From contig NZ_CP039690.1 of NCBI RefSeq assembly GCF_005144885.1, forward strand, positions 1,997,001 to 2,061,000: a stretch of DNA of 64,000 nt. Reading direction: 5' to 3'. Of this stretch, positions 19,355-56,154 are shown piece by piece. The position numbers and the translations under genes are program-made. Below the pieces are notes generated by a model, which saw only the letters and a list, made by a program, of their open reading frames with translations, had not been told where the DNA came from and searched no databases. The stretch is from Phreatobacter stygius (lineage in GTDB: Bacteria > Pseudomonadota > Alphaproteobacteria > Rhizobiales > Phreatobacteraceae). Positions within the stretch are counted from its first letter, which is position 1. Every line of letters starts with the position of its first letter.

Positions 19355-19364
19355 GCGCGGCGCG

Positions 19365-40809: not shown

Positions 40810-40837
40810 GACGTTCCAATCAGAAAAACTGATCGTC

Positions 40838-41758
40838 ATGGTTTCCTTCAAACAACTCCGCTACTTCGACGCGGTGGCCCGGCTGAAACATTTCGGCCAG
40901 GCCGCCGAGCACTGCGCGATCACCCAGCCGGCGCTCTCCATGCAGATCCAGGATCTGGAGCAGGAGCTGAAACTTCAGCTCATCGAGCGGCGGCGCAAGG
41001 GCATCCAGTTGACCGAGGACGGCCGCGAGATCGCGCGGCGCGCCCAGCGCATCCTGGCCGACATCCGCGACCTCAGGGATTATGCCCATCATCGCGGCGC
41101 GGGGCTGTCGGGCACCTTGCATCTGGGCGTCATCCCTTCGGTCGCGCCCTATATCCTGCCGCGGTTTTTGCCGCTGTTGCGCGACGCCTTTCCCGATCTC
41201 GAGGTGCATATCCGGGAAACCCAGACCCGCCAGCTGACCCGCGAATTGCTCGATGGCGGGCTCGATCTCCTGCTCGCCGCCCTGCCGGTCGAGCATCCCG
41301 ACATCGAGACCATCAGGCTGTTCGAGGATCGTTTCCTGCTGGCGCTGCCGGCCTCGCGCCAGATGCACGGGCGGGTCCAGGCCACTCCCGACCTGTTGAA
41401 GGACGACCGCCTGCTGCTGCTCGAGGAAGGCCATTGCCTGCGCGACCAGGCCTTGACCTTCTGCAGCCTGCGCAAGGTCGAGAATATCGACACATTCGGC
41501 GCCTCCAGCCTGTCGACCCTGGTGCAGATGGTGGCCAACGGCCTCGGCCTGACGCTGCTGCCGGAGATCTGCGTCGAGGTCGAAGCCCGCCACGGCCCGC
41601 TGAAGCTGATGCGCTTCGCCGATCCCGAACCGAACCGGGTGCTGGGCCTCGCCTGGCGGGCGAGCTCACCGCGCAAGCGCGACTTCGTCGAGCTCGGCCG
41701 GATGATCGTCGCGGCCCGGCCGGAATTCCCGGCGCGCGCGGATGCAACCAAAGGCTAG
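40838..41758 (+). CDS. oxyR: Peroxide-sensing LysR regulator OxyR
   Basis: A 306-residue LysR protein. The helix-turn-helix region (FKQLRYFDAVARLKHFGQAAEHCAITQ) is typical of OxyR. The redox pair is C200 and C209 in EEGHCLRDQALTFC, matching C199/C208 of the E. coli protein. ATG 40838 (MVSFKQLRYF) is chosen over the open frame to 40781, which runs through the operator region. It is divergent from catalase, its probable target. Confidence 0.95.
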   Translation: MVSFKQLRYFDAVARLKHFGQAAEHCAITQPALSMQIQDLEQELKLQLIERRRKGIQLTEDGREIARRAQRILADIRDLRDYAHHRGAGLSGTLHLGVIPSVAPYILPRFLPLLRDAFPDLEVHIRETQTRQLTRELLDGGLDLLLAALPVEHPDIETIRLFEDRFLLALPASRQMHGRVQATPDLLKDDRLLLLEEGHCLRDQALTFCSLRKVENIDTFGASSLSTLVQMVANGLGLTLLPEICVEVEARHGPLKLMRFADPEPNRVLGLAWRASSPRKRDFVELGRMIVAARPEFPARADATKG

Positions 41759-41768
41759 CGCCGGCCTC

Positions 41769-42362
41769 TCACATCGGCTGGCGCCAGGCCTCATACTGCT
41801 CGATCTGCCCGATATAGTTGATCGTGAAATCAATCTCGTCGAGGCCTTCCAGCAGGCAGTGCTTGCGAAAGGCATCGATCGGGAAGTCGAAGGCTGCGCC
41901 GCCGGATGTCGCGACGGTCTGGCCCGCAAGATCGATCTCGACCGTCATGCCCAATTCATCTCGCAGTCCTGCCAGCAGCAGTTGCATCTGTCCGGCCGGC
42001 AAATGGATCGGCAACAGACCGTTGATCAGGGCGTTCTGATAGAAGATGTCGCCGAAGCTCTCGGCAATGACCGCTCGGACGCCAATATCCTGCAGCGCAT
42101 AGACCGCGCCCTCGCGGGACGAGCCGCAGCCGAAATTCGATCCGGCGATCAGCACTTGCGCGCCGCGATAAGGGTCCTGGTTCAGCACGAAATCCGGCCG
42201 CTCGGCCCCATCGGCCTGATAGCGCAGATCGCGAAAACAATAGGGTCCGTAACCGAGCTCGCGTTTTTGCGCCAGAAAGCGCGCCGGCAGGATCTGATCG
42301 GTGTCGACATTGTCCAGGGCCAGGGGCACTGCGACCGACTGCAGGCGGGTGAATGCCAGCAT
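41769..42362 (-). CDS. leuD: Aconitase-family hydratase small subunit (LeuD-like), last gene of the catabolic cluster
   Basis: A 197-residue swivel-domain subunit. The substrate-recognition loop reads SNFGCGSSREGAVYALQD, and the N-terminal LDNVDTDQILPARFL is typical of LeuD. It starts two bases after the LeuC-like gene, so both form one enzyme. Family members dehydrate and rehydrate isopropylmalate, citraconate, homoaconitate or dimethylmaleate. The leuB gene is absent and the neighbours are catabolic, so leucine synthesis is not the likely job. It ends 10 bp from the convergent oxyR gene. Confidence 0.85.
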   Translation of the reverse strand: MLAFTRLQSVAVPLALDNVDTDQILPARFLAQKRELGYGPYCFRDLRYQADGAERPDFVLNQDPYRGAQVLIAGSNFGCGSSREGAVYALQDIGVRAVIAESFGDIFYQNALINGLLPIHLPAGQMQLLLAGLRDELGMTVEIDLAGQTVATSGGAAFDFPIDAFRKHCLLEGLDEIDFTINYIGQIEQYEAWRQPM

Positions 42363-42364
42363 GT

Positions 42365-43789
42365 TCAGGACCTCGTGACGTCGACCGCGTGCCCGTGCAA
42401 GGCCACCACCGCGGCCATGGCAGGGCTCATCAGATGGGTTCGCACGCTGGCGCCTTGCCGGCCGACGAAATTGCGGTTCGACGTCGCGGCGCAGCGCTCA
42501 CCTGCCTTTGCCAGATCGCCGTTCATGCCGACACACATCGAGCATCCCGACATCCGCCATTCGAGGCCGGCGTCCTTGAAGACACGATCCAGTCCTTCGG
42601 ATTCAGCAACCTCGCGCACGGCCATCGAGCCAGGCACGACCAGTGCCGGAAGCACGGCCCGGCGGCCGCGCAAGACCTCGGCTGCGGCGCGAAGATCCTC
42701 GATGCGCCCATTGGTGCAGGAGCCGATGAAGACCCGGTCGAACCGGATGTCGGCCATCGGCATGCCGGCCGACAGGCCCATATAGTCGAGCGCCTCCTGT
42801 TTGCTGGCGCGGCGCGACGGGTCGGCGATCGCGGTGGGGTCCGGCACACAGCCGTTGACCGACACGCTGTCCTCCGGGCTGGTGCCCCAGGTGACCATCG
42901 GCTCGACCGTGCCGGCATCGATTTCAATCTCCTGGTCGAAGCGGGCATCGTTCTCGCTCGCCAGCGCGCGCCAGGAGGCAACCGCCTGATGCCACTGGTC
43001 GCCGGTGGGGCTGAAGGGGCGCCCCTTCACGTAGTCGAAGGTCTTCTCGTCCGGCGCGACGAGGCCGAATTTCGCGCCCGCCTCGATGGTCATGTTGCAC
43101 AGGGTCAGGCGCCCTTCGATCGAAAGCGCTTCAACCGCTGCACCACAATATTCGATGGCAAATCCGGTGCCGCCGGCGGCCCCGATCCGGGCGATGATCG
43201 CCAGGATCAAGTCCTTGGCCGCAACCCTCGGCCGAAGCTGGCCGGTCAGGTGGATCCGCATCTGCTTCGGCTTCTTCTGCCAAAGCGTCTGGGTCGCCAG
43301 CGCGTGGGCGACCTGCGAGGCGCCGACCCCGAAGGCAAGCGCGCCCAGGGCACCATGGGTCGCGGTGTGGCTGTCGCCGCAAATCACCGTCAAGCCGGGC
43401 AAGCTCAGGCCGAGCTCCGGCCCGATGACATGGACGATGCCCTGCCGCGGATGCGCAAGGTCGAACAGCTTGATCCCGGCCGCGGATGTGTTGGCGCTCA
43501 GGTCGGATATGATCTCGCGGCGCGAACGAACATCGATCGTCTCGACGCTGCGGTTGTCGGTCGGAGCGTAGTGGTCGGCGGTGGCCGTGGTCAGATCAGG
43601 ACGCCGGACCGGCAGGCCCTTGCGCTTGAGCAGCGCAAAGCCGTTGCGGGACCCCTCATGCAGCAAGTGCCTGTCGATATAGAGCAGCGTGCCGGCGATC
43701 GGGTGCTCCATCACGGAATGTCGCGCCCACAGCTTGTCGAACAGCGAGCGCGGCACTGTCTCGCCTGGCGGCATCGGGTCAGGCGACAT
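42365..43789 (-). CDS. leuC: Aconitase-family hydratase large subunit (LeuC-like)
   Basis: A 474-residue iron-sulfur hydratase. The 4Fe-4S ligands are C358 (IGSCTNGR), C416 and C419 (GCSMCVG); VICGDSHTATHGALG is conserved. The start ATG 43789 overlaps the FMN-reductase gene by 11 bp. The open frame continues to 44041 only as a shadow. With the isocitrate-lyase-family gene upstream, a pair like dimethylmaleate hydratase plus dimethylmalate lyase of nicotinate fermentation is a fitting model; the exact substrate is inferred only. Confidence 0.85.
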   Translation of the reverse strand: MSPDPMPPGETVPRSLFDKLWARHSVMEHPIAGTLLYIDRHLLHEGSRNGFALLKRKGLPVRRPDLTTATADHYAPTDNRSVETIDVRSRREIISDLSANTSAAGIKLFDLAHPRQGIVHVIGPELGLSLPGLTVICGDSHTATHGALGALAFGVGASQVAHALATQTLWQKKPKQMRIHLTGQLRPRVAAKDLILAIIARIGAAGGTGFAIEYCGAAVEALSIEGRLTLCNMTIEAGAKFGLVAPDEKTFDYVKGRPFSPTGDQWHQAVASWRALASENDARFDQEIEIDAGTVEPMVTWGTSPEDSVSVNGCVPDPTAIADPSRRASKQEALDYMGLSAGMPMADIRFDRVFIGSCTNGRIEDLRAAAEVLRGRRAVLPALVVPGSMAVREVAESEGLDRVFKDAGLEWRMSGCSMCVGMNGDLAKAGERCAATSNRNFVGRQGASVRTHLMSPAMAAVVALHGHAVDVTRS

Positions 43790-44348
43790 GAGAGAACCTC
43801 GCGAAACCGAGCGTCTGCTGCGCCAGCAGCTTGAGGCGCGCATCGATGTCGGGATTGGAACAGCGGCCCTCGGCGTCGAACCGGCACTCGCTCGAATTGA
43901 TCGCGACGCCCATCGGGGTGGGCCAGCCGCGCAGGGCATGGATGACCGCGCGCAGGCTGGCGAGCGTCGTCCCCATCGCCTGGTCGCCATAGGCACAGAC
44001 GATGGTGCCGATCGCCCGGCCATCGAGATAGGGCCGCGCATCGCCGCGCAGCTCTTCGACGCAGTCCAGGGCGTTCTTGATCATGCCGGACATGATGCCG
44101 TGATAGGCGGGCGTCGAGATGATCAGGCCGTCACAGCGGCGGACCGCGTCGATCAGCCGGATGGCCCTGCCGTCCGACAGCCTGCCGGCGCCATAATTGG
44201 GAAAATCCAGGTCCGCCGAAACGAAGGCGGCGATATCAGCACCGTCGGCCTCCGCGTGGCGCAGGGCGGTCATCAGCGCCTTCTCGCTCGAGGAATTGCC
44301 GGAGGTCGTGCCGCCGATGCCGATAATATAGGGACGATACCGAGCCAT
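43779..44348 (-). CDS. NAD(P)H-dependent FMN reductase, flavodoxin fold
   Basis: A 189-residue NADPH_FMN_red protein. Flavin-binding landmarks are GIGGTTSGNSSSEKAL near the N-terminus and STPAYHGIMSGMIKNALD in the middle. Relatives such as SsuE and MsuE supply reduced FMN to two-component monooxygenases. The luciferase-like monooxygenase in the same cluster (51925 to 50807) is the natural partner. Confidence 0.85.
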   Translation of the reverse strand: MARYRPYIIGIGGTTSGNSSSEKALMTALRHAEADGADIAAFVSADLDFPNYGAGRLSDGRAIRLIDAVRRCDGLIISTPAYHGIMSGMIKNALDCVEELRGDARPYLDGRAIGTIVCAYGDQAMGTTLASLRAVIHALRGWPTPMGVAINSSECRFDAEGRCSNPDIDARLKLLAQQTLGFARFSHVA

Positions 44349-44419
44349 GGCTGTTCAACTCCCTCGTGCGGTTGATCCGAAGGCAGGCCGATGCGGCCGC
44401 GCCGACCTGTGATGACACC

Positions 44420-45268
44420 TCAAGGCGCACACGCGCGCAGGCGTTTCCATTCTTCGCCGCCGGCACGGACCGCCCCGTCCTGGATGCCGATATCGCCTGG
44501 AGGCACCGGATGGCGTCCCGTCAGCCGCGCGGCCTGAAGAACCTCGTCCGAGATTCCCATGACCGATTTCAACAGGATGCTCGGCAGGATCGCGATCCGA
44601 TAACCCATGGACGCGGCATCTTCGAACGAGACGTCAGGGGTCTTGCCGCGCCAGACGATGTTCAGGAGACAGGGTCCCTGAACCCGTCGTGGAATCGCGG
44701 CCATTTCGTCGAGGTCTTGCGGCGCCTCGACAAAGGCGACGTCCGCGCCGGCCTCCAGCGCCCGGTTGGCACGGTCGATCGCGGCGTCCAGGCCCTCGAC
44801 CGAACGCGCATCGGTGCGGGCGATCAGGACGAAATTGCCGGTCTCGCGCGCCATGGCCGCGGCCCTGATCTTCGCGATGAACTCGCCGGCCGGAACGATC
44901 GCCTTGTTGTCGAAGTGACCACATTGCTTCGGAAACACCTGGTCTTCGATATGCATGGCGCCGACGCCTGCCCGCTCGTATTCGCGAACCGCCCGCGCGG
45001 CGTTGAGTTCATTGCCGAAACCGGTATCGCCATCGGCGATCAGCGGTATCGACAAGGACCGGGCGACCCGGCCGGCCACGGCCACCATCTCGGTCATGGT
45101 CAGCAGGCCAAAATCCGGAAAGCCATGTGACGCGGCAACCCCGGCGCCGGTCATATAGGCGGCCTTGAAACCGGCGCGCGCGATCGCCCCCGCGGTCAGG
45201 CAGTCATAGGCTCCCGGCGCCAGGATCAGCTCGCCTGTCTGAAGCAGTTCTCGCATCGATGAAGCCAT
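44420..45268 (-). CDS. Isocitrate lyase / PEP mutase family C-C lyase
   Basis: A 282-residue TIM-barrel enzyme. The metal-binding ADGDTGFG has D79 and D81, and the catalytic cysteine is C116 in KQCGH, the mark of true lyases (isocitrate, methylisocitrate and 2,3-dimethylmalate lyases) that PEP mutases lack. ATG 45268 has GAGGA just upstream; ATG 45280 is embedded in that ribosome binding site and is less likely. It probably splits the 2-hydroxy dicarboxylate made by the LeuCD-like hydratase, giving pyruvate or glyoxylate plus another acid. Confidence 0.85.
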   Translation of the reverse strand: MASSMRELLQTGELILAPGAYDCLTAGAIARAGFKAAYMTGAGVAASHGFPDFGLLTMTEMVAVAGRVARSLSIPLIADGDTGFGNELNAARAVREYERAGVGAMHIEDQVFPKQCGHFDNKAIVPAGEFIAKIRAAAMARETGNFVLIARTDARSVEGLDAAIDRANRALEAGADVAFVEAPQDLDEMAAIPRRVQGPCLLNIVWRGKTPDVSFEDAASMGYRIAILPSILLKSVMGISDEVLQAARLTGRHPVPPGDIGIQDGAVRAGGEEWKRLRACAP

Positions 45269-45298
45269 TGCCGTCCTCATTTGACCCGTGATTTGGCG

Positions 45299-46024
45299 TC
45301 AAACGCCCAGATAGGATTTGATTTCGGACTGCCTTGCCGTGATTTCGTCGCCCCGGATCATGTCGACGATGCGCCCGTTCGCCATGACGTAATGACGGTC
45401 GGCAACGGCGGCGGCGAAGCGATAGTTCTGCTCCACCAGGAGGATGGTGTAACGCCGGGCGCGCAGCCGCCTCAGGATGTGGCCGATCTCCTGGACGACC
45501 ACCGGAGCAAGTCCTTCGGTCGGTTCGTCCAGCAGCAGAATGCGCGACCCTGTGCGGAGGATCCTGGCAATGGCCAGCATCTGCTGCTCGCCACCGGACA
45601 GCTTGGTGCCCTGGCTGTTCAGCCGCGCTCGCAGGTTCGGAAAGAGGCCGAGGACGTCGTCCATCGACAGTCCGTCCGGCTGCAGGACCGGTGGAAGAAG
45701 CAGGTTTTCCAGAACCGTCAGCGACGAGAATATGCCGCGGTTCTCGGGACAATAGGCAACGCCCATGCGGGCGATCCGCCGCGCCGGCAATCCGATGGTC
45801 TCGGCACCCGCGATCTCGATCGAACCGGCTCGACCGGGCAGCATGCCCATGATCGCCTTGAGCGTGGTCGATTTGCCCGCGCCGTTGCGGCCCAGAAGCG
45901 TCACCACCTCGCCATCCGCCAAGTCGAGATCGACGCCGTGCAGGACATGACTTTCATCGTACCAGGCATTCAGGTCGCGAACCCTGAGGAGGCAGTCGCG
46001 TCGATCGGCAGCGCTGTCAGTCAT
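45299..46024 (-). CDS. livF: Branched-chain amino-acid-type ABC transporter ATPase LivF
   Basis: A 241-residue ATPase with Walker A GRNGAGKST, signature LSGGEQQMLAIARIL, Walker B RILLLDEPTEGLAP and the short LivF C-terminus. It overlaps livG by 8 bp. It belongs to the Liv-type uptake system of the cluster, whose ligand is probably the pathway substrate. Confidence 0.94.
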   Translation of the reverse strand: MTDSAADRRDCLLRVRDLNAWYDESHVLHGVDLDLADGEVVTLLGRNGAGKSTTLKAIMGMLPGRAGSIEIAGAETIGLPARRIARMGVAYCPENRGIFSSLTVLENLLLPPVLQPDGLSMDDVLGLFPNLRARLNSQGTKLSGGEQQMLAIARILRTGSRILLLDEPTEGLAPVVVQEIGHILRRLRARRYTILLVEQNYRFAAAVADRHYVMANGRIVDMIRGDEITARQSEIKSYLGV

Positions 46025-46805
46025 GGTCGGATCCGATATAGGCTTCCTGAACCTCGGGATTGCTGGAAACAGCCGAATAGTCGCCCTCGGCCAGCACGCG
46101 CCCGCGCGCCAGCACGGTAATCCGGTCGCAAAGAGCGGCCACGACCGGCAGATTGTGTTCGACCATCAGGATGGTGCGGCCCTTCCGGATGCGCATGATG
46201 AGCTGCGAGACGCGCTCGACATCCGCAGCCGACATGCCGGCCATCGGTTCGTCGAGCAGCAGGACCCGCGGCGCCAGGGCCAGTGTCGTCGCCAGTTCGA
46301 GCGCGCGTTTGCGGCCATAGGGCAAGAGCGCCGCATTGACGTTACGGAACTCGACCAGGCCGACCTGTTCGAGAATGGCATCGGCCTCCGCCTCCAGGTC
46401 GGCAAGCGATCGATCGCTTTTCCAGAACTGGAAGATGCGCCGGGTTCGGCTCTGCAGCGCGACACAGACGTTCTGCACGGCGCTCAGGCCCGGAAAGACC
46501 GCCGAGATCTGGAACGATCGGACGAGACCGCGTCGCGCGATATCGGCCGGATCGAGCCTCGTGATCTCGTGCCCGTCGAAAAAGATCTGCCCCGCGGTCG
46601 GCGTGAGAAATTTCGTGATCAGGTTGAAACAGGTCGTCTTGCCGGCGCCGTTCGGGCCGATCAGCGCATGGATGCTGCCTTCCATCACCTGCAGATCCAC
46701 CGCGTCGACGGCGCGGAAGCCCGAAAACTCCATCGCGAGCTGACGGGTCTCGATCATCACCCGGGACGTCGGCCGGCTATCCTTGATCGTCGGCTGCGCG
46801 GACAT
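46017..46805 (-). CDS. livG: Branched-chain amino-acid-type ABC transporter ATPase LivG
   Basis: A 262-residue ATPase with Walker A GPNGAGKTT, a family insertion including FDGHEITRLDPADIARRGLVRSFQ, and Walker B RVLLLDEPMAGM. The signature region reads LLPYGRKRALELATTLAL, lacking the exact LSGGQ, as in some LivG proteins. ATG 46805 overlaps the LivM stop codon by one base. Confidence 0.94.
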   Translation of the reverse strand: MSAQPTIKDSRPTSRVMIETRQLAMEFSGFRAVDAVDLQVMEGSIHALIGPNGAGKTTCFNLITKFLTPTAGQIFFDGHEITRLDPADIARRGLVRSFQISAVFPGLSAVQNVCVALQSRTRRIFQFWKSDRSLADLEAEADAILEQVGLVEFRNVNAALLPYGRKRALELATTLALAPRVLLLDEPMAGMSAADVERVSQLIMRIRKGRTILMVEHNLPVVAALCDRITVLARGRVLAEGDYSAVSSNPEVQEAYIGSDHD

Positions 46806-47794
46806 CACAGCGGCCTTCCGATCTTGCGCGAAATGACGCCGACGATGCCATCCCGGAACAGCAGAACCGAGATCACGAAGATCAGTCCCTGCAGGAAGAC
46901 GACCCATTCGCCGAAACCCGCCAGATAGTTCTGGCTGACCACGATGACGGCCGCACCCACGATCGGGCCGAGGATCGTGCCGACCCCGCCGACCAGCGTC
47001 ATCAGCACGACTTCGCCCGACGTCGAGATGTGGACATCGACAAGCGAGGCGATCTGAAAAACGACCGCCTTCATGGACCCGGCAAGCCCGGAAAGGCCGG
47101 CGGAAATGATGAAGACGGCCAGCTTGTAGAACCTCACATTGAGCCCGAGCGATATCGCGCGGGGCTCATTGCCGCGGATCGCCCGGAGCACCTGCCCGAA
47201 CGGCGAAAATGCCAGCCGGTAGGTGAGCAGCAGCGTGACCAGGAAGACCGTCGCGATGACGAAATACAGGCTCACGTCGTTCTTCAGGTCGATCATCCCG
47301 AAGAGAGTGCCGCGCGGCACATTCTGGATGCCGTCCTCGGCACCGGTGAACGGCGAACGCAGGGCGACGAAATAGATGAGTTGGGCAAGGCCCAGCGTCA
47401 CCATCGTCAAGTAGATGCCCTGTCGGCGGATCGCCAAGGCGCCGAAGACAGCGCCGAGCACAACACCGGTCATCGTTCCCAGTGCGACCGCGGCCTCGGG
47501 CGGCAGACGCCAGACCAAGGCTGCATAAGCCGCGACATAACCGCCTGCGCCGAAAAAGGCGGCGTGGCCGAAGGACAGCAAGCCGCAATGACCAAGCAGA
47601 AGATTGAATGCGATCGCGAACAGGGCGAAGCACAACAGCTTCATCAGGAAGATCGGATAGACGAAGGCGGGCAGGACGATCAGCGCCACGGCCAGCGCCA
47701 GGAATATCCAGCGGAAATGCCGACGGTCCCGGGCCGGATCGGAGATGGCCGCGCGTTGGGGCGCCTCGGTGACGAATGGCGACGAGATGGACAT
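46805..47794 (-). CDS. livM: Branched-chain amino-acid-type ABC transporter permease LivM
   Basis: A 329-residue permease with about nine to ten membrane segments. NLLLGHCGLLSFGHAAFFGAGGYVAAY and RAIRGNEPRAISLGLNVRFYKLAVFIISA are strong LivM markers. It is between LivH and LivG with short gaps. Confidence 0.94.
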   Translation of the reverse strand: MSISSPFVTEAPQRAAISDPARDRRHFRWIFLALAVALIVLPAFVYPIFLMKLLCFALFAIAFNLLLGHCGLLSFGHAAFFGAGGYVAAYAALVWRLPPEAAVALGTMTGVVLGAVFGALAIRRQGIYLTMVTLGLAQLIYFVALRSPFTGAEDGIQNVPRGTLFGMIDLKNDVSLYFVIATVFLVTLLLTYRLAFSPFGQVLRAIRGNEPRAISLGLNVRFYKLAVFIISAGLSGLAGSMKAVVFQIASLVDVHISTSGEVVLMTLVGGVGTILGPIVGAAVIVVSQNYLAGFGEWVVFLQGLIFVISVLLFRDGIVGVISRKIGRPL

Positions 47795-47801
47795 GACTGT
47801 C

Positions 47802-48677
47802 TCAGTACTTTCCCAACAGGCCTGAGGGGCGGATCGTGATGACCACGATCATCGCGACAAAAATGACGACGGAAGACGCCTCCGGATAAAAGATCTTGGT
47901 CAGGCCTTCGAGAATCCCGAGAGAGAACCCGCTGATGATCGAGCCCAGGATCGAGCCCATGCCGCCAATGACCACGACGGCGAAGACGACGCTGAGCATT
48001 TCCACGCCCATTTGCGGACTGATCGTGTAGATCGGCCCGGCGAGCACGCCGGCAAAGCCGGCCAGGGCTGCCCCGGCGCCGAATGTCAGCGTCACCAGCA
48101 TCGGCACATTGACGCCAAAAGCCGAGACCAGGTCCGGGTCTTCGTTGGTGGCCCGCAGGTAAGAACCCAACCGTGTCTTCTCGATCGCATACCAGACCGA
48201 AAAGCAGATCAGGATCGACACCACGATGATCCAGGCGCGATATTTCGGCAGGAAGACGAAGCCGAGGTTCCATCCGCCGCGGAGCTCCGCCGGAATGCCG
48301 TAGGGCAGGCCGGAAGACCCGAACAATCCCTGGAACAGGGACTGCATCATGAGCGCGATGCCGAAGGTCAGAAGCAGGCCGTAGATCGGATCGAGATTGC
48401 GCAGGCGCGAGATCAACAGCCGATCCAGCACCATGCCGAATGCGCCGACGATCAGCGGCGACAGCAGCAGGGCCCACCAGTAGCCGATGCCGAGATGGGC
48501 CAGCAGCAGCCACGCGCACATGGCTCCGAGCATGTAGATCGCGCCATGGGCGAAGTTGATGATGTGCAGGAGACCGAAGATGATCGCCAGGCCAAGGCTC
48601 ATCAGCGCATAGAACGAACCGTTGATCAGGCCGATCAACAATTGCCCGCTGAGAACCTGCGCTGAAATTCCGAACAT
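47802..48677 (-). CDS. livH: Branched-chain amino-acid-type ABC transporter permease LivH
   Basis: A 291-residue permease of about eight membrane segments, starting MFGISAQVLSGQLLIGLINGSFYALMSLGLAIIFG. The motif RATNEDPDLVSAFGVNV and the final GLLGKY are typical of LivH. ATG 48677 gives the usual N-terminus; the in-frame codon at 48725 is not supported. Confidence 0.94.
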   Translation of the reverse strand: MFGISAQVLSGQLLIGLINGSFYALMSLGLAIIFGLLHIINFAHGAIYMLGAMCAWLLLAHLGIGYWWALLLSPLIVGAFGMVLDRLLISRLRNLDPIYGLLLTFGIALMMQSLFQGLFGSSGLPYGIPAELRGGWNLGFVFLPKYRAWIIVVSILICFSVWYAIEKTRLGSYLRATNEDPDLVSAFGVNVPMLVTLTFGAGAALAGFAGVLAGPIYTISPQMGVEMLSVVFAVVVIGGMGSILGSIISGFSLGILEGLTKIFYPEASSVVIFVAMIVVITIRPSGLLGKY

Positions 48678-48758
48678 GATTGCTACGCGCGCTCCTGGAT
48701 CGCTGGTCGGCAGGGCCGGCGGCACCGCCGGCCCTCGCTTCGGTGTTGGCTGGGCGGA

Positions 48759-49967
48759 CTACCGCAGCAAGGGGCAGGCGCTTTCGGCCAGCGGCCGGAA
48801 GGCGTCGTCGGCAGCCACCCTGGTGACCAGGCTGACCGCGTCCCACGGCGCCGTGCTCGGATCCGCCGGCCCCTTGGCGCGCATGAGATACATCTCGTGC
48901 ATCATGCGGCCGTCGCGGCGAACCCGCCCCGACGGGGTGAAATTGTCCGAGATCGTCATCTCGTGGAGGTTCTTCAGCACGGCCGCCGCGCTGTCGGTCT
49001 TGGCCGCCTCGATCGCCTTCAGATAGGACCGGACCGCGGAATAGACGCCGGCATGCGCCTGGCCCGGATTGGAGCCGCGGCGACGGTTGAATTCACGCGC
49101 CAGCTGGCGCGTGCCGTCGTTCAGGTCCCAATAGAAGGCGTCGATATAGTGAAGGCCTTCGGCATCCTCGCGACCGAGCGCCAGGATGTCGACCATGGTG
49201 ATGGCGGGGCCGACGATGCGCAGCGTGTCGCCTTTGATGCCGAACTCCCTGGCCTGCTTGACGGCGCGGACGAAGTCGGTCCCGGAATTGGCAAAGACCA
49301 GCACATTGGCGCCGGAGGCCTGCGCCTGCATGATGAAGGACGAATAGTCATTGTTGCCGGTGGGATGCCAGATGGTGCCGACGACCTGTCCGCCGCGCGT
49401 GGCAATCGTCTTGGTCATCACCTCGACCAGCGAGCGGCCGAAGGCGCTGTCCATGCCGATGAAGAACCATTTCGTGCCGCCGCTGGCACTGACCGCGTTC
49501 GCCATGGAACGGCCGGTGGCATAGGTGTCATAGGTCCAATGGATGCCGTTGGGCGAGCAGCTGTCATTGGTCAGCCGGTCGGTTCCGGGCCCGGAGAACA
49601 GGACGACCCGGTTCTTTTCCTTGACCAATTCCTGTACGGCCAATGCAACCGCCGAACTTCCGAGGTCGACGATGGCGTCGACCTGTTCGACGTCAAGCCA
49701 TCGACGCGCGATGTTCAGGCCGACATCCGGCTTGTTCTGGTGATCGGCGGAGACCAGCACGATCGGGACGCCGCCGATATTGCCACCGAATTCGTCGATG
49801 GCCATTTGTGCCGCGGCGACCGAGCCGGCGCCGGTCTGATGCGAGAACGGCCCGGACATGTCGGTGAGAACGCCGATCTTGATGACGTTGTCGGACATCT
49901 GGGCCGAGGCGACCCCGGCCAGCAGGGTGCCGAACGCCAGGACGCAGGTTCGAAGAATTCTTTTCAT
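48759..49967 (-). CDS. Liv-type periplasmic substrate-binding protein
   Basis: A 402-residue receptor (Peripla_BP_6). The signal peptide is about 1-23 (cleavage after VASAQ). IKIGVLTDMSGPFSHQTGAGSVAAAQMAIDEFGG is the family opening. The start at 49967 is preceded by GGGAGG. It delivers the substrate to LivHMGF. Receptors of this family bind amino acids, amides, urea and aromatic acids, so the name does not fix the ligand. Confidence 0.93.
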   Translation of the reverse strand: MKRILRTCVLAFGTLLAGVASAQMSDNVIKIGVLTDMSGPFSHQTGAGSVAAAQMAIDEFGGNIGGVPIVLVSADHQNKPDVGLNIARRWLDVEQVDAIVDLGSSAVALAVQELVKEKNRVVLFSGPGTDRLTNDSCSPNGIHWTYDTYATGRSMANAVSASGGTKWFFIGMDSAFGRSLVEVMTKTIATRGGQVVGTIWHPTGNNDYSSFIMQAQASGANVLVFANSGTDFVRAVKQAREFGIKGDTLRIVGPAITMVDILALGREDAEGLHYIDAFYWDLNDGTRQLAREFNRRRGSNPGQAHAGVYSAVRSYLKAIEAAKTDSAAAVLKNLHEMTISDNFTPSGRVRRDGRMMHEMYLMRAKGPADPSTAPWDAVSLVTRVAADDAFRPLAESACPLLR

Positions 49968-50022
49968 TGTTTCCTCCCGAGATGAATGGCTGGATGCCGC
50001 CGCGAGCCGGATGGCGCGCCGG

Positions 50023-50793
50023 CTACAGGCGGCCTCCGTCGATGACAAAATCCGCGCCGGTCACGAACGCCGCCTCGTCCGAGGCCAGATACAGGGTCAA
50101 GGCAGCGACTTCCTCGGGCCGGCCAAGACGCTTCGCCACCCGGCCCTCGCTCAGTCCGGCCATGACCTTGTCCTGCTGCGGCCGCGACATGTTTGAAATG
50201 AAGGCGCGCGGCATCGGCGTATCGATCGCGCCCGGCAAGATCGAGTTCACCCGGATCGGCGCGAGCTCGATCGCCGCAACCCGCGACATCATCTGGACCG
50301 CCGCCTTGGAGGCGGAATAGGCGCTCATATTGGCCGTCGGCTTGGTCGCCGCCCCCGACGACATGTTGATGATCGCGCCGCCATCGGTCATCAGCGGCGC
50401 CAAGGCCCGCATCAGCAGAAACGGACCGGTGACATTGACCGCCATCAGACGGTCGAGATCGGCGCGGCTCGTCTCCATGAGCGGTTTGCCGATCATCACT
50501 CCGGCATTGTTGACCAGGATGTCGAGCCGCCCCCAAGTCTCCCTGAGGTGGTCGCCGAAACCGGCGACAGCGGTCTCCGAGGTCACGTCCAGGTCATAGC
50601 CCCGGCAGCGCCTTGCCGCGTCGTCATGACCGTCGCCGGCCCAGTCGCTGAACATCCCCTCGTCGGCGCCGATATCCGCGCCGACCACCCTCGCCCCCTC
50701 GAGGGCGAAGCGTTTGCAGATTGCCATTCCGATGCCACCGCGGGCACCGGTCACGACAACGGTCTTGCCACTGAGGGCCTGGCTCATCCGCAT
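50023..50793 (-). CDS. Short-chain dehydrogenase/reductase (SDR)
   Basis: A classical SDR of about 256 residues. The cofactor site is VTGARGGIGMAI, followed by NNAGV. The active site is S (NMSSGAATKPTA), then Y-x-x-x-K in AYSASKAA. The C-terminal YLASDEAAFVTGADFVIDGG is standard. GGGGA sits six bases before ATG 50793, which is preferred to 50799 and 50787. It probably oxidises an alcohol or reduces a carbonyl in the cluster's pathway. Confidence 0.9.
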   Translation of the reverse strand: MRMSQALSGKTVVVTGARGGIGMAICKRFALEGARVVGADIGADEGMFSDWAGDGHDDAARRCRGYDLDVTSETAVAGFGDHLRETWGRLDILVNNAGVMIGKPLMETSRADLDRLMAVNVTGPFLLMRALAPLMTDGGAIINMSSGAATKPTANMSAYSASKAAVQMMSRVAAIELAPIRVNSILPGAIDTPMPRAFISNMSRPQQDKVMAGLSEGRVAKRLGRPEEVAALTLYLASDEAAFVTGADFVIDGGRL

Positions 50794-50806
50794 CACCATT
50801 CCCCGC

Positions 50807-51925
50807 TCAATGTCTCAATCCGCTTTGCTTCAGCAAGGGCATCACCTTGTCGCGGAAATAGGTGAGCTCGGATGCGTAGTCGACGAAGTACATGACCAGG
50901 CCATGCACGCCGCGCCCGGCATAGTCGTTCATCTGATCGACGATCTGCTCCGGCGTGCCGATCAGCGGGTGCGTGCCGTAACCCGCCACGAACCTGCGCG
51001 CGCGCTCCTCGAAACCCTGTTTGAACGAGCCGCTTTCGATGCCGAGCGTCGCCATCATGCTGCGCGCGGCCTCCCAATCGCCGTGATCGAGAATGCTCTG
51101 AAACGCCGCCTGGGCCTCCGCCTCGGTGTCGCGACAGACCACCAGCGCCGAGCACATCAGGGCGACATCGCGGTCATATTCCTTGTCGGCGCGCGCCTTG
51201 ACGCTCAACAGGCGCTCGATGTCGTCAGGCCGCGACGGCGAGCCGAAGCTGATGTCGACATTGCGCGCGGTGAATTCGATGCCGGCCGGCGAGGTGCCGG
51301 CATTGACCAGAACCGGACCGGGCCGCTGCAGCGGCTTGGGGCTCGATTCCAGTCCCGCCAGATCGAAATATTGGCCCTTGAAATCGAACTCACCCGGGTC
51401 GGTCCACAGCCGCTTGACCACCTCCAGCCATTCCTCGCCGTAGCGATAGCGATCGTCGTGTTCACGCAGGCCGGTGCCGAACATTGCCATTTCGGAACGA
51501 AACCAGCCCATCACCACGTTGAGGCCGAACCGCCCGTTCGAAATGTGATCGATGGTTGCCGCCTGTTTGGCCGCCACGACGGGATGCGTGAGGCCAACGT
51601 GGGAGGTCGCGAAGCACATGATCCTGTCGGTTGCCTCCGCCATCCCGGCCGCCCAGGTGTAGACGTCGAAATTTGTGCCGTTGTGGTTGGACTGGCCGCC
51701 CTGGCCCTTCCATCGGCCGATCGGCAAGGCCACTTCCAGGCCCATCCTGTCGGCAAGCTGGATGATGTTGCGGTTCTGCTGCCAGGACATCTGATGCTCG
51801 GTCGGCAAGGTCGTAATGACGCTGCCGCCGCTGCAGTTCATGGCGAACACGCCCAGCTTGAGCTTTTGATCATTGAAGATCGGAATGTTCTGGCGCCGGT
51901 ATTCGCGCAATTCTTCGCGGTTCAT
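50807..51925 (-). CDS. Luciferase-like flavin monooxygenase, RutA-like
   Basis: A 372-residue class C two-component monooxygenase. Its pattern (QAATIDHISNGRFGLNVVMGWFRSEM, then DDRYRYGEEW, and FDFKGQYFDLAG with NAGTSPAG) follows the RutA/SsuD/DszA type. RutA opens the uracil ring at an amide bond with an FMN peroxide, so ring or amide opening is a fair guess. Reduced FMN would come from the reductase at 43779-44348. It sits between the isochorismatase-like gene and the SDR. Confidence 0.88.
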   Translation of the reverse strand: MNREELREYRRQNIPIFNDQKLKLGVFAMNCSGGSVITTLPTEHQMSWQQNRNIIQLADRMGLEVALPIGRWKGQGGQSNHNGTNFDVYTWAAGMAEATDRIMCFATSHVGLTHPVVAAKQAATIDHISNGRFGLNVVMGWFRSEMAMFGTGLREHDDRYRYGEEWLEVVKRLWTDPGEFDFKGQYFDLAGLESSPKPLQRPGPVLVNAGTSPAGIEFTARNVDISFGSPSRPDDIERLLSVKARADKEYDRDVALMCSALVVCRDTEAEAQAAFQSILDHGDWEAARSMMATLGIESGSFKQGFEERARRFVAGYGTHPLIGTPEQIVDQMNDYAGRGVHGLVMYFVDYASELTYFRDKVMPLLKQSGLRH

Positions 51926-51977
51926 GATTTTGGCTCCGTGCCATCCGTCGTGACGCTGGAAGGCCGTGACGGGAACA

Positions 51978-52556
51978 TCAGCCGAACGACACGGCGTCGG
52001 AGGTGGTGATCGCGCAGAACCGGCCGAGCATCGCGATCGAGTCCTCGTGTTCCTTCGCCGTCGCCGCCGCGCAGCAATCCTCGACCACGACGCAGTGGTA
52101 ATCGCGGTCGTGAGCCTCGCGAATGCCGGCCTGGACGACCGCGGCCGTCGACACGCCCGACATCACGAGGCGCGTCATGCCATGGGCGCGCAGGAAGACT
52201 TCGAGGTTCGTGCCGTAGAACGGGCTGACCCGGTGCTTGGTCACCAGGAGATCGGTCTCGCGACGGTCGAGATCGGGATGAATCTCGGTTCCCCAGGAGT
52301 CCAGCTTGAGAATCCCGTATGTCTTGATCGCGTTGAACATCGGCGAGGTCGACGAGCATTCGCGGTAGTCGCTGGAGAAGCCGACCCGCACAAAGACAAC
52401 GGGAGCCTCAGCCGCTCGCGCCTTTTCGATCACGGCCGCCGTATTGGCGAGCACATTGCGACCGCGGACCTGCTCACCGAGCGGTCCGGCGCCGTTCGGC
52501 CCGTCCTTGTGGACCAGATCGTTCTGCAGATCGAGAACGAGATATGCTGACGACAT
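51978..52556 (-). CDS. Isochorismatase-fold protein lacking the catalytic cysteine
   Basis: A 192-residue protein, first gene of the twelve-gene cluster. Of the family triad, D9 (LVLDLQNDL) and K107 (VTKHRVSPFYGT) are present. The position usually held by cysteine (G-x-x-T-x-x-C) reads GVSTAAV, so V140 replaces it. Amidohydrolase relatives such as RutB and NicF need that cysteine, while true isochorismatases do without. It may therefore catalyse a non-amidase hydrolysis or be inactive. ATG 52556 directs the divergent transcript away from the IclR gene. Confidence 0.85.
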   Translation of the reverse strand: MSSAYLVLDLQNDLVHKDGPNGAGPLGEQVRGRNVLANTAAVIEKARAAEAPVVFVRVGFSSDYRECSSTSPMFNAIKTYGILKLDSWGTEIHPDLDRRETDLLVTKHRVSPFYGTNLEVFLRAHGMTRLVMSGVSTAAVVQAGIREAHDRDYHCVVVEDCCAAATAKEHEDSIAMLGRFCAITTSDAVSFG

Positions 52557-52778
52557 CGGATTACTTCCTTCACGGGACAGCCGGCCACGCCGCGCCTGTT
52601 GCGCGGTCAGCGGAGCTGACGGTTTGTGGTGGGCCGTGCGAGCACGGCGAGCGGTGGTGCGGGGTTACGGCACGCGCCTGGAGCGACGGCGCGGCCGGCC
52701 GGCTGTCGCGACCTGCAGGTCTTGCTGATGGCCCTGAACGGCGTTTCCCGAGTGAGGAGTCATTGAGCTCTCTTTTTT

Positions 52779-52793
52779 TGGAATTGATTTCCA
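52779..52793. promoter_or_regulatory. Putative IclR operator 1
   Basis: TGGAA-TTGAT-TTCCA within TTGGAATTGATTTCCAT. It lies 223 bp before the first cluster gene and shares 15 of 17 bases with operator 2. Confidence 0.7.
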
Positions 52794-52962
52794 TTATTTC
52801 TGATGGCGAGCGGCGACATTGTCAACCCCTGCGACAGGAAACTTCGGCGCCGCAACCGCTGGCCCGACGATCCGTTCGAATTAGCCATCTAATATCAAAT
52901 AGATAACCGATCGACGGCGCGCCGGGCCGGTCGTGGCAAAAGCCTGGATTTGCGCCAGGTAT

Positions 52963-52977
52963 TGGAATACATTTCCA
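52963..52977. promoter_or_regulatory. Putative IclR operator 2
   Basis: TGGAA-TACAT-TTCCA within TTGGAATACATTTCCAT, 48 bp before the iclR start codon. Its position suits autorepression. Confidence 0.7.
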
Positions 52978-53024
52978 TCGCGCCGGGCCTTGTGCCCCGC
53001 TTTTGCCAACCGCAAGATCACGTC

Positions 53025-53867
53025 ATGGCCATCAAGAGCAGCACGCCGCCCGCCACGAGATCGAAGGTCCGCCAGGGCGGGAGCGGCAACGATCTGACCG
53101 GTGACAATGCGGATGACAGCCAGGTCATTGCCGCTTTGGCCCGCGGGCTGGAGGTCCTGGGCGCCTTTCATCTGGGCGACCGCCAGCTCGGCAATCACGA
53201 GCTTGCGACCCGAACCGGATTGCCCAAGGCGACCGTCTCGCGGATCACCTTCACCCTCGCCAAAAGCGGCTTCCTGTCGTTCGACCAGCGGCAGCGGATG
53301 TATCATTTGGGTCCCAAGGCGCTGAACCTCGGATTCGTGGCGCGGGCCGACGCGGATATTCGCGGCAATCTCCGGCCGATGATGCAGCAGTTCGCCAACG
53401 AAACCGGGCTGAACATCGGGCTCGGCGTTCGCGACAAGGATTCGATGCTTTACATCGACACCTGGGAGGGAACCGCGCTGGTCGGCCTGAAGGTCTATCC
53501 GGGCTTCCGGATTCCCTTTTTCACCACGGCCATGGGGCGAGCCTATCTGGCCGCCCTCACCCAGGGCGAGCTGCAGCTTCAGTTGGGTGAGCTTGCCCGG
53601 CAGATGGTCAATGACGGCCTGTCCAGAGAGGACGTCGACAAGCAGATCGACCACTACCAGCAGTATGGCTTCGCGATAAGCCTCGGTGATTGGGTCGAGG
53701 ACATCGGAACCATCGCAGTGCCGTTCAGCCGCCCCGATCGGCGGCAGATCTATGTCATCAGCGTCGGCGGCCCGATCTATCGCATGACGAGGTCGGTGAT
53801 ATATGACGAGCTCGGCCCCAGGCTGATCGCGTTTCGCAACAGCATTGAGAGCAGTACGATATTCTAG
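53025..53867 (+). CDS. IclR-family transcriptional regulator
   Basis: A 280-residue IclR regulator. The winged helix spans about residues 35-90 (ALARGLEVLGAFHLGDRQLGNHELATRTGLPKATVSRI), and the effector domain follows, with IGLGVRDKDSMLYIDTWEG and GFAISLGDWVEDIGTIAVPF. ATG 53025 is preferred; the open frame to 52950 crosses operator 2. It is divergent from the twelve-gene catabolic cluster and probably controls it by sensing a pathway compound. Confidence 0.9.
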   Translation: MAIKSSTPPATRSKVRQGGSGNDLTGDNADDSQVIAALARGLEVLGAFHLGDRQLGNHELATRTGLPKATVSRITFTLAKSGFLSFDQRQRMYHLGPKALNLGFVARADADIRGNLRPMMQQFANETGLNIGLGVRDKDSMLYIDTWEGTALVGLKVYPGFRIPFFTTAMGRAYLAALTQGELQLQLGELARQMVNDGLSREDVDKQIDHYQQYGFAISLGDWVEDIGTIAVPFSRPDRRQIYVISVGGPIYRMTRSVIYDELGPRLIAFRNSIESSTIF

Positions 53868-53876
53868 GTCGTGTCC

Positions 53877-54236
53877 TCAGCCTCGCCCGGCATGCACGAG
53901 AATGTTGACGAGCTTGCCGAAGGGGTCGCGGACGTAGAAACGCCTGACGCCCCAGGGCTCGTCCGCCGGCCCATATGCGATCGGAAAACCGGCGTCCTTC
54001 ATGCCTTGGAGCGCGGCGTCGAGATCGTCGACTTCGATCGACAGATCCGGCGTCGGCGTGCCCGAGCCGCCCTGCGAGGCGATGCTGACCTGGACACTCA
54101 TCGCCTGGTCCGAGCCATAGGTTGCGATCCAGCCGTGATCCATCAGGAGATCGAGGCCGAGCACATCCTGGTAGAAGCGTTTAGCCACCGAAACATCCGC
54201 CGCACCAAGATTGGCGACGATCCGCTTGACCCTCAT
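53877..54236 (-). CDS. VOC-superfamily protein (glyoxalase/bleomycin-resistance fold)
   Basis: A 119-residue single-chain VOC protein, normally a dimer around a metal site. AAD-x-SVAKRFYQDVLGLDLLMDHG and VRRFYVRDPFGKLVNILVHAG mark the paired beta-alpha-beta-beta-beta units. ATG 54236 has GAGG upstream; 54254 is the alternative. It is convergent with iclR and 45 bp from the antiporter gene. Substrate unknown. Confidence 0.85.
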   Translation of the reverse strand: MRVKRIVANLGAADVSVAKRFYQDVLGLDLLMDHGWIATYGSDQAMSVQVSIASQGGSGTPTPDLSIEVDDLDAALQGMKDAGFPIAYGPADEPWGVRRFYVRDPFGKLVNILVHAGRG

Positions 54237-54281
54237 GTCCGACCTCTTGGCCATGCTCCGCCGCGCTTGCCGGCACCCCGG

Positions 54282-56042
54282 TCACGCCGCCTGCGGGGTC
54301 GCGCCGCCATCGGCCGGGGCCCTCCCGGCGTGATCGAGAATGCCCTTGGCGATCTCGCGCTCGCCCATGATTACCACATCGGCGCCAAGCCCGGTCAGGT
54401 GTTCGACCTCGGCATCGGAATGGGCCCGCGCGATCACCCTGATGCCGGGATTGGCGGCCTTGCTCTTGTCGATGATCTGGCCCGCCTCGAAGGCGTTCGG
54501 GATAGCCAGGATGAGCCGGCTCGCGCCGGCGACATTGGCGGCCTTGAGGATGTCGCCGCGTGCGGCATTGCCGGTGATCGTCTCGATCGCCTCGGCATGC
54601 AGCTGCGCCACCAGCTTGTCGGCATCCTCGATGACCAGAAACGGCTGGCCTTGCTGCTTCAGGCCGGCGCCGACCAGGCTGCCGACCCGGCCATAACCGA
54701 CCAGCACGGTATGTCCGGTCAGGGCCGTCGCCTCCGGTAGGTCATCATCGTCATGCGCGGCCGGCACCGCGGCCGGAACAGGCCCGCCGGCCGAGGCCGC
54801 GGCATCCGGCGGGGCGGGTTCCTTGCGGTCGGCCAGCCGCTTCAGCCAGCCGACCGCCGCGAAGGCCAGCGGATTGACCAGGATCGACAGGATGGCGCCG
54901 GCCAGGATCAGGTCGCGCCCGCGTTCCGGCAACAAGGACAACTGAACCCCAAGCTCGGCCAGGATGAACGAGAACTCGCCGATCTGCGCCAGGCTCGCCG
55001 AAATGATCAGCGCGGTCGCCAGCGGATAGCCGAAGGCAAGCACGATCAGGAAGGCCGCGACCGACTTGCCGATCACGATGATGAACAGGGTCGCCATGAC
55101 CGCGCCGGAGTCGTTGATCAGGCTGACCGGCGAGACCAGCATGCCGACCGACACGAAGAACAGCACCGAGAAGGCATCGCGCAGCGGCAGCGATTCCTCC
55201 GCCGCCCGGTGGCTGAGCTGCGACTCGCTCATGATCATGCCGGCGAAAAAGGCACCGAGCGCGAATGACACGCCGAACAGCTTGGCCGCGCCGAAGGCGA
55301 CGCCGAGCGCGATCGACAAGACGGCGAGCCGGAACAATTCGCGCGAGCCGGTATGGGCGACATAGTGGAGGATCCAGGGGATGACCCGCCGTCCGACCAC
55401 CAGCATGAGGCCGACGAAACCAGCGACCTTGACGACGGTCAGCGCAATGGCACCGCCGACGCCGAGGCCGAGATAAGCGACCAGCGGATCGGCCGCGGCC
55501 ATCTGGCTGGTGCCGCCGAGCAGGCCGGAGAGCGCCGGCAGTAGCACCAGCGCCAGCACCATGGCCAGATCCTCGACGATCAGCCAGCCGACCGCGATGC
55601 GGCCGCGCTCGGTGTCGATCAGCCGCCGCTCCTGCATGGCGCGCAACAGCACGACCGTGCTGGCGACCGACAGGGCCAGGCCGAAGACCAGCCCCGCCCC
55701 GAAGCTCCAGCCCAGCGCCCAGGCAAGGCCGGCTCCCATGGCGGTCGCCACCGCGATCTGCACGACGGCCCCCGGCAGCGCGATGGTGCGCACCGACAAC
55801 AGGTCCTTCAGCGAGAAATGCAGCCCGACGCCGAACATCAGCAGGATGACACCCATCTCGGCGAGTTCGGGCGCCAGCTTCTGATCGGCGACGAAGCCAG
55901 GCGTGTGCGGCCCGACCAGGACGCCGGCCAGGAGGTAGCCGACCAGCGGCGGCACCCGGAACCGGTTGGCGATGGCGCCGAAAACGAAGGCCAGTCCGAG
56001 CCCCGCGACAATGGTGGCGATCAGCGGCGTGTCATGATGCAT
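54282..56042 (-). CDS. ybaL: CPA2 cation:proton antiporter with RCK domain (YbaL/KefB-like)
   Basis: A 586-residue membrane protein: about twelve membrane segments over residues 1-385, then a linker and a TrkA-N (RCK) domain with the nucleotide site VLVGYGRVGSLVG near residue 440. The N-terminus MHHDTPLIATIVAGLGLAFVFG matches E. coli YbaL closely, which fixes the start at ATG 56042. It probably exchanges K+ or Na+ for protons. It is divergent from a small XRE regulator that may control it. Confidence 0.92.
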   Translation of the reverse strand: MHHDTPLIATIVAGLGLAFVFGAIANRFRVPPLVGYLLAGVLVGPHTPGFVADQKLAPELAEMGVILLMFGVGLHFSLKDLLSVRTIALPGAVVQIAVATAMGAGLAWALGWSFGAGLVFGLALSVASTVVLLRAMQERRLIDTERGRIAVGWLIVEDLAMVLALVLLPALSGLLGGTSQMAAADPLVAYLGLGVGGAIALTVVKVAGFVGLMLVVGRRVIPWILHYVAHTGSRELFRLAVLSIALGVAFGAAKLFGVSFALGAFFAGMIMSESQLSHRAAEESLPLRDAFSVLFFVSVGMLVSPVSLINDSGAVMATLFIIVIGKSVAAFLIVLAFGYPLATALIISASLAQIGEFSFILAELGVQLSLLPERGRDLILAGAILSILVNPLAFAAVGWLKRLADRKEPAPPDAAASAGGPVPAAVPAAHDDDDLPEATALTGHTVLVGYGRVGSLVGAGLKQQGQPFLVIEDADKLVAQLHAEAIETITGNAARGDILKAANVAGASRLILAIPNAFEAGQIIDKSKAANPGIRVIARAHSDAEVEHLTGLGADVVIMGEREIAKGILDHAGRAPADGGATPQAA

Positions 56043-56093
56043 GGGCTGGGAATGGCCTTTCAAACAATCGGGCGGGTGGAGGGCGCTTGCTCT

Positions 56094-56116: not shown

Positions 56117-56154
56117 TATCCGATCCATGCAAGGCCAACGGTGTTCACGGTCTG

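Follow-up and report, generated by a model that had tools for sequence, protein, structure and literature searches.

What would a bacterium degrade with a gene string that joins a luciferase-like monooxygenase to a hydratase and a lyase? This question is raised by a 64,000-nt stretch of Phreatobacter stygius DNA (the window; C1:1997001-2061000 in a genome of 7.35 Mb on a single contig). We found 12 genes on one strand (minus) at 41769-52556 of the window and a divergent IclR gene on the plus strand, 13 genes in total according to the open reading frame (ORF) list, Pfam and NCBIfam. We favor the reading that they form a catabolic operon for the oxidative opening of a small ring, most likely a cyclic amide or imide, followed by a hydratase/lyase step, and give this reading a probability of about 0.45. 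The genes are listed below in their order on the minus strand, from 52556 down to 41769, with IclR last; the starts of LeuC (43789, the listed ORF from 44041 being overlong), IclR (53025), LivG (46757) and LivK (49967) were refined.

51978..52556, minus strand: ISO, isochorismatase-fold, YecD-like protein, 192 amino acids (aa) (PF00857, 140 bits; PRK11440, 100 bits, cut-off of 195 not reached; alignments)
50807..51925, minus strand: LLM, luciferase-like monooxygenase, 372 aa (PF00296; SfnG and RutA models; alignment)
50023..50799, minus strand: SDR, short-chain dehydrogenase/reductase-type oxidoreductase, 258 aa (PF13561, 209 bits)
48759..49967, minus strand: LivK-type periplasmic binding protein, 402 aa (Peripla_BP_6, PF13458, 345 bits)
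47802..48725, minus strand: LivH permease (BPD_transp_2, PF02653)
46805..47794, minus strand: LivM permease (BPD_transp_2, PF02653)
46017..46757, minus strand: LivG ATPase (ABC_tran, PF00005 and PF12399)
45299..46024, minus strand: LivF ATPase (ABC_tran, PF00005)
44420..45280, minus strand: ICL, isocitrate-lyase/phosphoenolpyruvate (PEP)-mutase family protein, 286 aa (PF13714, 160 bits; KQCGH)
43779..44348, minus strand: flavin mononucleotide (FMN)-reductase-family protein (FMN_red), 189 aa (PF03358, 68 bits)
42365..43789, minus strand: LeuC-like hydro-lyase large subunit (Aconitase), 474 aa (PF00330; TIGR00170)
41769..42362, minus strand: LeuD-like small subunit (Aconitase_C), 197 aa (TIGR00171; alignment)
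53025..53867, plus strand: IclR-family regulator, divergent (PF01614, PF09339; PcaR/PcaU/PobR model, 123 bits of 285)

Across the 11 junctions in the ISO-to-LeuD string, neighboring genes overlap by as much as 11 bp or are separated by up to 71 bp. The GC fraction of the cluster is 0.639, compared with 0.670 in the remainder of the window. The string, operon-like in structure, is predicted to be a dedicated catabolic operon, and the neighboring IclR gene probably encodes its own regulator. The gaps of at most 71 bp bear out the claim, made in a sequence-only reading of the same DNA, of a single operon-like unit with an adjoining divergent IclR gene, and all the families named there were recovered by Pfam in 13 of the 13 genes, including KQCGH in ICL.

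A gene-neighborhood search, which the sequence-only reading had proposed as a check, found the set in a sister species and its core on a Variovorax plasmid. The metagenome-assembled genome (MAG) SCN18_10_11_15_R5_B_67_21 (locus L005 and genome G003, the same assembly and counted once) holds all 13 genes in the same order at 81-98% identity, and the match extends into both flanks (40828-57944 at 86%). Plasmid 2 of Variovorax sp. RA8 carries a run of genes for a major facilitator superfamily (MFS) transporter, LLM, SDR, ISO, ICL, LeuC, LeuD, RibBA, a flavin reductase, a tripartite tricarboxylate transporter (TTT) binding protein and GntR. Identity between window and RA8 is 57.5% for LLM, 48% for SDR, 42% for ISO, 58% for LeuC, 45% for LeuD and 47% for ICL. 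Chance adjacency of the 13 genes is ruled out by the 13-gene synteny together with the reassembly in RA8.

The RA8 transporter and regulator differ in kind from the Liv system and IclR of the window, and the flavin reductases belong to different families (PF01613 in RA8 versus PF03358). In approximately unbiased (AU) tests, whose groups were chosen after identities and trees were known, a single clade of window and RA8 sequences was rejected both for ICL (p 9e-15) and for LeuC (p 0.0088). Judging by these sequences, the front end (LLM, SDR and ISO) has been joined twice with the same predicted activities from different sources. Because the two sets draw on different ICL and LeuC clades and different reductase families, this twofold assembly suggests that hydratase, lyase and monooxygenase work in one pathway, and we consider that it argues for a shared pathway more strongly than anything else presented here. 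RibBA genes lie near the LLM genes both in RA8 (L052:23618-24850) and on Rhizobium etli p42d (L054:15001-16281), which suggests an additional flavin supply for these enzymes.

The monooxygenase had been called RutA-like, a label that stands for its oxygen pocket but not for its family score. LLM reached 160 bits against the curated RutA model TIGR03612 (cut-off 498) and 211 bits against the SfnG model TIGR04021 (cut-off 383), its best curated model, with the NtaA/DmoA model third at 157 bits; membership in RutA or SfnG was rejected on these cut-offs. Its best solved chain was SfnG 8t0u, followed by 3rao and RutA, and a fold search with the predicted structure (mean predicted local distance difference test score of 75, several active-site loops below 50) ranked SfnG 1 and RutA 9. 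In the alignment, Thr105 and Asn134 of RutA, matched by their 29-residue spacing, correspond to T107 and N136 of LLM, and SfnG 8t0u has Ala at the Thr position. Across 26 LLM loci, the pocket holds Thr in 25 and Ser in 1, and Asn in all 26. According to the accessible parts of two papers, Thr105 and Asn134 of RutA hold O2 (PMC10005588), and this motif is incompletely conserved in SfnG (PMC8234197). Since LLM keeps the Thr/Asn pocket, RutA-type oxygen chemistry is plausible for it, presumably with reduced FMN (FMNH2).

ISO departs from the amidases of its fold. Aligned with the family, it retains Asp9 and Lys107, which we take to be triad residues of isochorismatase-fold thiol amidases such as RutB and biuret hydrolase, and has Val140 at the position of the catalytic Cys, which is Cys in biuret hydrolase 6xix. 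The residue there is Val in the sister species, Ala in RA8 and Gly in six clusters of a HyuA/HyuB type described below; YecD (1j2r), a close match of ISO, also has Gly. Nine of the 10 distinct ISO proteins lack the Cys, the exception being a Methylobacterium protein from another gene arrangement. Thiol amide hydrolysis by ISO appears unlikely because the catalytic Cys is absent, and this loss (Val140; Ala or Gly in relatives) ruled out an ordinary thiol amidase. True isochorismatases, which hydrolyze a vinyl ether, are also without this Cys.

The proposed pairing of a hydratase with a lyase was supported, with the aconitase family represented by the LeuCD-like proteins and the isocitrate-lyase family by ICL. 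The LeuC-like and LeuD-like subunits pass the isopropylmalate isomerase (IPMI) models TIGR00170 (650 bits, cut-off 560) and TIGR00171 (191 bits, cut-off 116), and fail the HacA and LeuD/DmdB models. That this pair might be the only LeuC-type copy of the genome, which would have spoken against a catabolic role, is ruled out: the genome gave three LeuC-type matches, and the copy at C1:1890064 is nearest to E. coli LeuC (65% identity versus 54% for the window copy). Among 12 genomes of the genus, two have three such matches, eight have two, one has one, and no match at the cut-off was found in the last, a genome that is 85% complete. In a 55-row LeuC tree, 31 rows including E. coli LeuC and the C1:1890064 copy form a clade (100/100), which we infer to be biosynthetic from the membership of E. 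coli LeuC. The window LeuC and that of the sister species fall outside it and are reached by a branch of 0.91; the 19-row group to which they belong (96/90) also takes in RA8, Azospirillum, Sulfitobacter, Neorhizobium and the genome's third copy. The tool warned that long branches meet at the row of the window LeuC. One row (L105) was dropped for want of a long uninterrupted match, and L083, L113 and L114 were left out of the tree (L083 and L113 as duplicate rows). The expected separation from true LeuC was thus seen in the best tree, but a joint clade of the window pair with the 31 rows was not rejected (AU p 0.27). The LeuD motif reads SSREHA in E. coli, the only ordinary biosynthetic copy in the alignment, and SSREGA or SSREAA in the nine other rows, SSREGA being that of the window.

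ICL matches PF13714/PF00463 and has the KxCGH loop (KQCGH), in line with the isocitrate-lyase/PEP-mutase superfamily, and is predicted to be a C-C lyase. It was rejected as a PrpB member on the curated cut-off (254 bits of 354, TIGR02317). Its solved-chain matches were 4iqd (185 bits), 1zlp (180 bits) and 3fa3, 2,3-dimethylmalate lyase (177 bits). The score of 3fa3 is slightly below those of the other two chains; dimethylmalate, on which the earlier comparison drew, may be only one option among possible substrates. In a 35-row tree, from which L130 was dropped for lack of a long uninterrupted match, the window ICL falls in a 15-row clade (100/97) that includes lyases adjoining LeuCD on plasmids of Paraburkholderia, Methylobacterium and V. 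paradoxus. The RA8 ICL groups elsewhere: together with seven lyases of HyuA/HyuB-type clusters it makes up an 8-row clade (99/95). Three plasmid cassettes (L058, L059 and L060) combine an ICL-like lyase and LeuCD with GntR and MmgE/PrpD, PrpF or various transporters; no monooxygenase was found in the stretches seen.

LeuCD genes of the RA8 clade adjoin HyuA, HyuB, ISO and ICL in six fully seen clusters:

C1:5911.7-5927.6 kb, own genome (L029, L141): HyuA/HyuB-type cluster
L062, Azospirillum: HyuA/HyuB-type cluster
L063, Sulfitobacter: HyuA/HyuB-type cluster
L134, L135 and L136: one HyuA/HyuB-type cluster each

A seventh begins in L137 and is cut by the edge of the stretch. The own cluster comprises LeuCD, GntR, a Liv system, MmgE/PrpD, an ICL-like lyase, HyuB, HyuA, a Cys-less ISO and a TcuA-like flavin adenine dinucleotide (FAD) protein. 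Its HyuA and HyuB are nearest to caprolactamase (492 and 299 bits of 1000, below the cut-off), and its FAD protein to flavocytochrome c (230 bits of 285) and then tricarballylate dehydrogenase (160 of 369), a similarity that would fit formation of a cis-ene-diacid from a substituted succinate. The FAD protein occurs in three of the six clusters (own, L062, L063), MmgE/PrpD in two (own, L136) and in L137, and GntR in three (own, L063, L134) and in L137; several carry a Liv-type or tripartite ATP-independent periplasmic (TRAP) transporter. Genus mates hold LeuC of the same clade as the own HyuA/HyuB cluster. If HyuA/HyuB open a lactam or imide beside a like back end, LLM may open one too, by analogy and not as proof. 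The HyuA/HyuB clusters were met more often (six) than the LLM type (two lineages), in searches that do not amount to a census. In L136, the LeuD of the HyuA/HyuB-type cluster and an LLM gene (19117-19977, 39%) are about 8 kb apart, with TRAP genes between.

Taken together, we propose the following course for the favored ring-opening operon. The Liv system would import a small ring compound. LLM, with FMNH2 and O2, would form an N5-(hydro)peroxyflavin. This flavin species would attack a carbonyl of the ring, most likely in a cyclic amide or imide, and the ring, which may contain nitrogen, would open. ISO, by acid-base rather than thiol hydrolysis, and SDR, in either order, would process the opened product to an alkylmaleate-type cis-ene-diacid; LeuCD would hydrate it to an alkylmalate, which ICL would split to yield a 2-oxoacid, either pyruvate or glyoxylate, plus a short saturated acid. 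The parallel cluster type would use HyuA/HyuB, nearest to the ATP-dependent lactamase, as ring opener before the same kind of back end. A more specific version, an O2-dependent cyclic imide or lactam route with a RutA-type N5-peroxyflavin opener, a Cys-less acid-base ISO and LeuCD/ICL for a substituted maleate, as counterpart of the HyuA/HyuB route, is tentative and in our estimate somewhat doubtful; its candidate substrates would be maleimides or succinimides that bear substituents, such as those derived from tetrapyrroles.

Several points weigh against the favored reading. The substrate assignment is a proposal drawn from gene content, and the complete set was met in two lineages only (the two sister species, and RA8). 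With no Cys in ISO, the operon would have no clear amidase, which weakens the amide inference at this step; scores and the fold search with the predicted model place LLM nearer SfnG than RutA; the ISO proteins of the HyuA/HyuB clusters are only 29-30% identical to that of the window, and the parallel appears loose. In addition, a 49% LLM relative in Sphingobium adjoins genes for aldehyde dehydrogenase, alcohol dehydrogenase, SDR, SnoaL_4 and FAD_binding_2 proteins, a neighborhood that suggests an alicyclic substrate. It would suit a pathway for a cyclic ketone, with no nitrogen, where SDR turns an alcohol into the ketone, LLM carries out an FMN-dependent Baeyer-Villiger oxidation, ISO hydrolyzes an enol-ether-like product and LeuCD and ICL process the diacid. 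The adjacency of SDR and LLM in both the window and RA8 points the same way, as does the Cys-less ISO, which is closer in kind to true isochorismatases and their vinyl-ether hydrolysis than to amidases. We nonetheless consider a cyclic ketone unlikely, given the lactamase-like HyuA/HyuB beside a like back end in the parallel clusters and given RutA itself, whose turnover requires an intact amide, 1,3-cyclohexanedione having given no catalysis in the accessible part of PMC7662398.

The closeness to SfnG leaves another version, C-S or C-N cleavage, in which the substrate is an open-chain substituted succinate, LLM acts on it like SfnG or the nitrilotriacetate/ethylenediaminetetraacetate (EDTA) monooxygenases, and the other genes degrade the carbon skeleton. 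The first rank of SfnG among curated models, solved chains and fold matches, and the third place of NtaA/DmoA among the models, agree with it; the RutA Thr kept in 25 of the 26 LLM loci, and replaced by Ser in one, where SfnG has Ala, does not, and no sulfur-assimilation gene occurs among the Pfam matches of the 13 genes or the annotated RA8 neighbors. We regard such cleavage as improbable. The back end might also be unconnected with the front, LeuCD being a spare leucine-biosynthesis enzyme and ICL a spare methylisocitrate lyase beside an unrelated monooxygenase operon. LeuC and LeuD do exceed the curated IPMI cut-offs, and placement of the window LeuC inside the biosynthetic clade was not rejected (AU p 0.27), a result that also tells against our favored reading. 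Yet the genome holds a separate LeuC nearer to E. coli, the window copy lies outside in the best tree, the LeuD signature is changed, the PrpB cut-off is missed, ICL adjoins LeuCD in several other clusters and the set was assembled again in RA8, all of which makes spare enzymes very improbable.

The 468-bp intergenic gap between ISO and IclR contains two palindromes, found by pattern search:

52778..52794, no strand: palindrome TTGGAATTGATTTCCAT, candidate IclR operator, about 220 bp before ISO
52962..52978, no strand: palindrome TTGGAATACATTTCCAT, candidate IclR operator, 46 bp before the IclR start

The pattern, derived from these same two sites, has two matches in the window versus 0.01 expected, and none of 100 shuffles reached two; allowing up to two mismatches brought no third match in the window. 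In a genome-wide search limited to the exact 15-bp core, the own genome has two copies, both in the ISO/IclR gap and 184 bp apart, and the sister-species genome has two copies in the same gap only, also 184 bp apart; a reversed control pattern gave no matches in this search. Both palindromes are intact in the sister-species locus. They fit a private IclR operator pair: the IclR protein would bind both and sense the substrate or an intermediate. Promoter and terminator scans gave chance level only. The solved chains nearest to LivK are 3i09 and 3n0w, for which the search output stated no ligand clue.

Beyond these lineages, LLM relatives were few and differently placed; the samples of relatives, order, class and phylum overlap. 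LLM matches at E <=1e-95 occurred in 12 of 385 Alphaproteobacteria, including the own genome, and no ISO, ICL or LeuCD lay near the other 11 (five read over 10.9-20 kb, L078-L082, one at a contig end; six over about 1.5 kb on each side). The phylum sample gave LLM matches at 1e-90 in 5 of 398 genomes, again counting the own one. None of the three was seen around the LLM relatives L006-L009 and L025-L028 in the stretches covered, and a search for further full clusters in the order of G440 (possibly Burkholderiales, chosen by guess) gave 0 of 244 at the cut-off. On the plasmid side, LLM has matches at 1e-40 in 285 records, none with at least 60% identity, the best being RA8. An empty site was not found in genus mates, where the antiporter gene alone matched in the 3 genomes read; the right flank matches the sister species.

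Some further observations were made. The sister-species genome has a second LLM (29%), with Liv genes and an ISO-like gene (30%) as neighbors (L030:367-10068), possibly a rut-type cluster. A Peribacillus frigoritolerans plasmid (NZ_CP084540.1, L053) carries two LLMs, a flavin reductase, a riboflavin kinase, a CoA-transferase, a LeuCD-like pair, a gene resembling 3-hydroxy-3-methylglutaryl (HMG)-CoA lyase, and IclR, possibly a counterpart in Bacillota that follows the same logic but depends on CoA. The operon is flanked by genes for a catalase, a TrkA_N-domain antiporter and Nramp (39258-40736, 54282-56063 and 56577-57941). Elsewhere in the window are an Rfam match to 'ffh sRNA' (RF01793, 45.5 bits; 59063-59114) and a tRNA-Ala (cgc; 8438-8513).

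The combination of uptake, flavin-dependent ring opening, and hydration and cleavage of a diacid appears to be undescribed. In agreement with the earlier statement that no described pathway with exactly this set was known to its author, we found none among the open-access papers listed (in two cases 15 of 444 and 15 of 134), which did include work on the mechanism of RutA; this coverage leaves out most subscription journals and could miss a described pathway. Riboflavin breakdown, according to the accessible part of PMC12746152, proceeds by other enzymes. If the favored reading is true, the operon would encode a catabolic pathway not described before, put RutA-type flavin chemistry to a new use and give isochorismatase-fold proteins without the Cys a role. 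Some genes annotated as leuC or leuD, and lyases resembling methylisocitrate lyase, would then be parts of catabolic cassettes, and annotating a leucine pathway from such copies can be misleading. Through the HyuA/HyuB clusters, the question can be put to the test in named genera, Azospirillum and Sulfitobacter among them.

Among known systems, the Rut pathway (RutA, RutB, RutF) resembles the operon in the Thr/Asn dioxygen pocket of LLM, an isochorismatase-fold partner and a flavin reductase. It differs in that the window LLM is far under the RutA cut-off, ISO has no thiol nucleophile, and the reductase is FMN_red rather than the Flavin_Reduct type of RutF; the window has an extra SDR, hydratase and lyase, and no RutC, RutD, RutE or RutG type among the cluster Pfam matches. 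Anaerobic nicotinate breakdown uses dimethylmaleate hydratase and 2,3-dimethylmalate lyase, likewise an aconitase-family hydratase followed by an isocitrate-lyase-family lyase, whereas the window adds a monooxygenase front end and its hydratase passes the bacterial LeuC/LeuD models, not HacA or LeuD/DmdB. The 2-methylcitrate cycle shares with it the lyase family and the KxCGH loop of PrpB; the window lyase misses the PrpB cut-off, and no citrate-synthase-type gene is among the cluster Pfam matches. The HyuA/HyuB-ISO-ICL-LeuCD clusters, for which we found no name, also have a Cys-less ISO, ICL and LeuCD, but their ring opener is a caprolactamase-like HyuA/HyuB instead of LLM.

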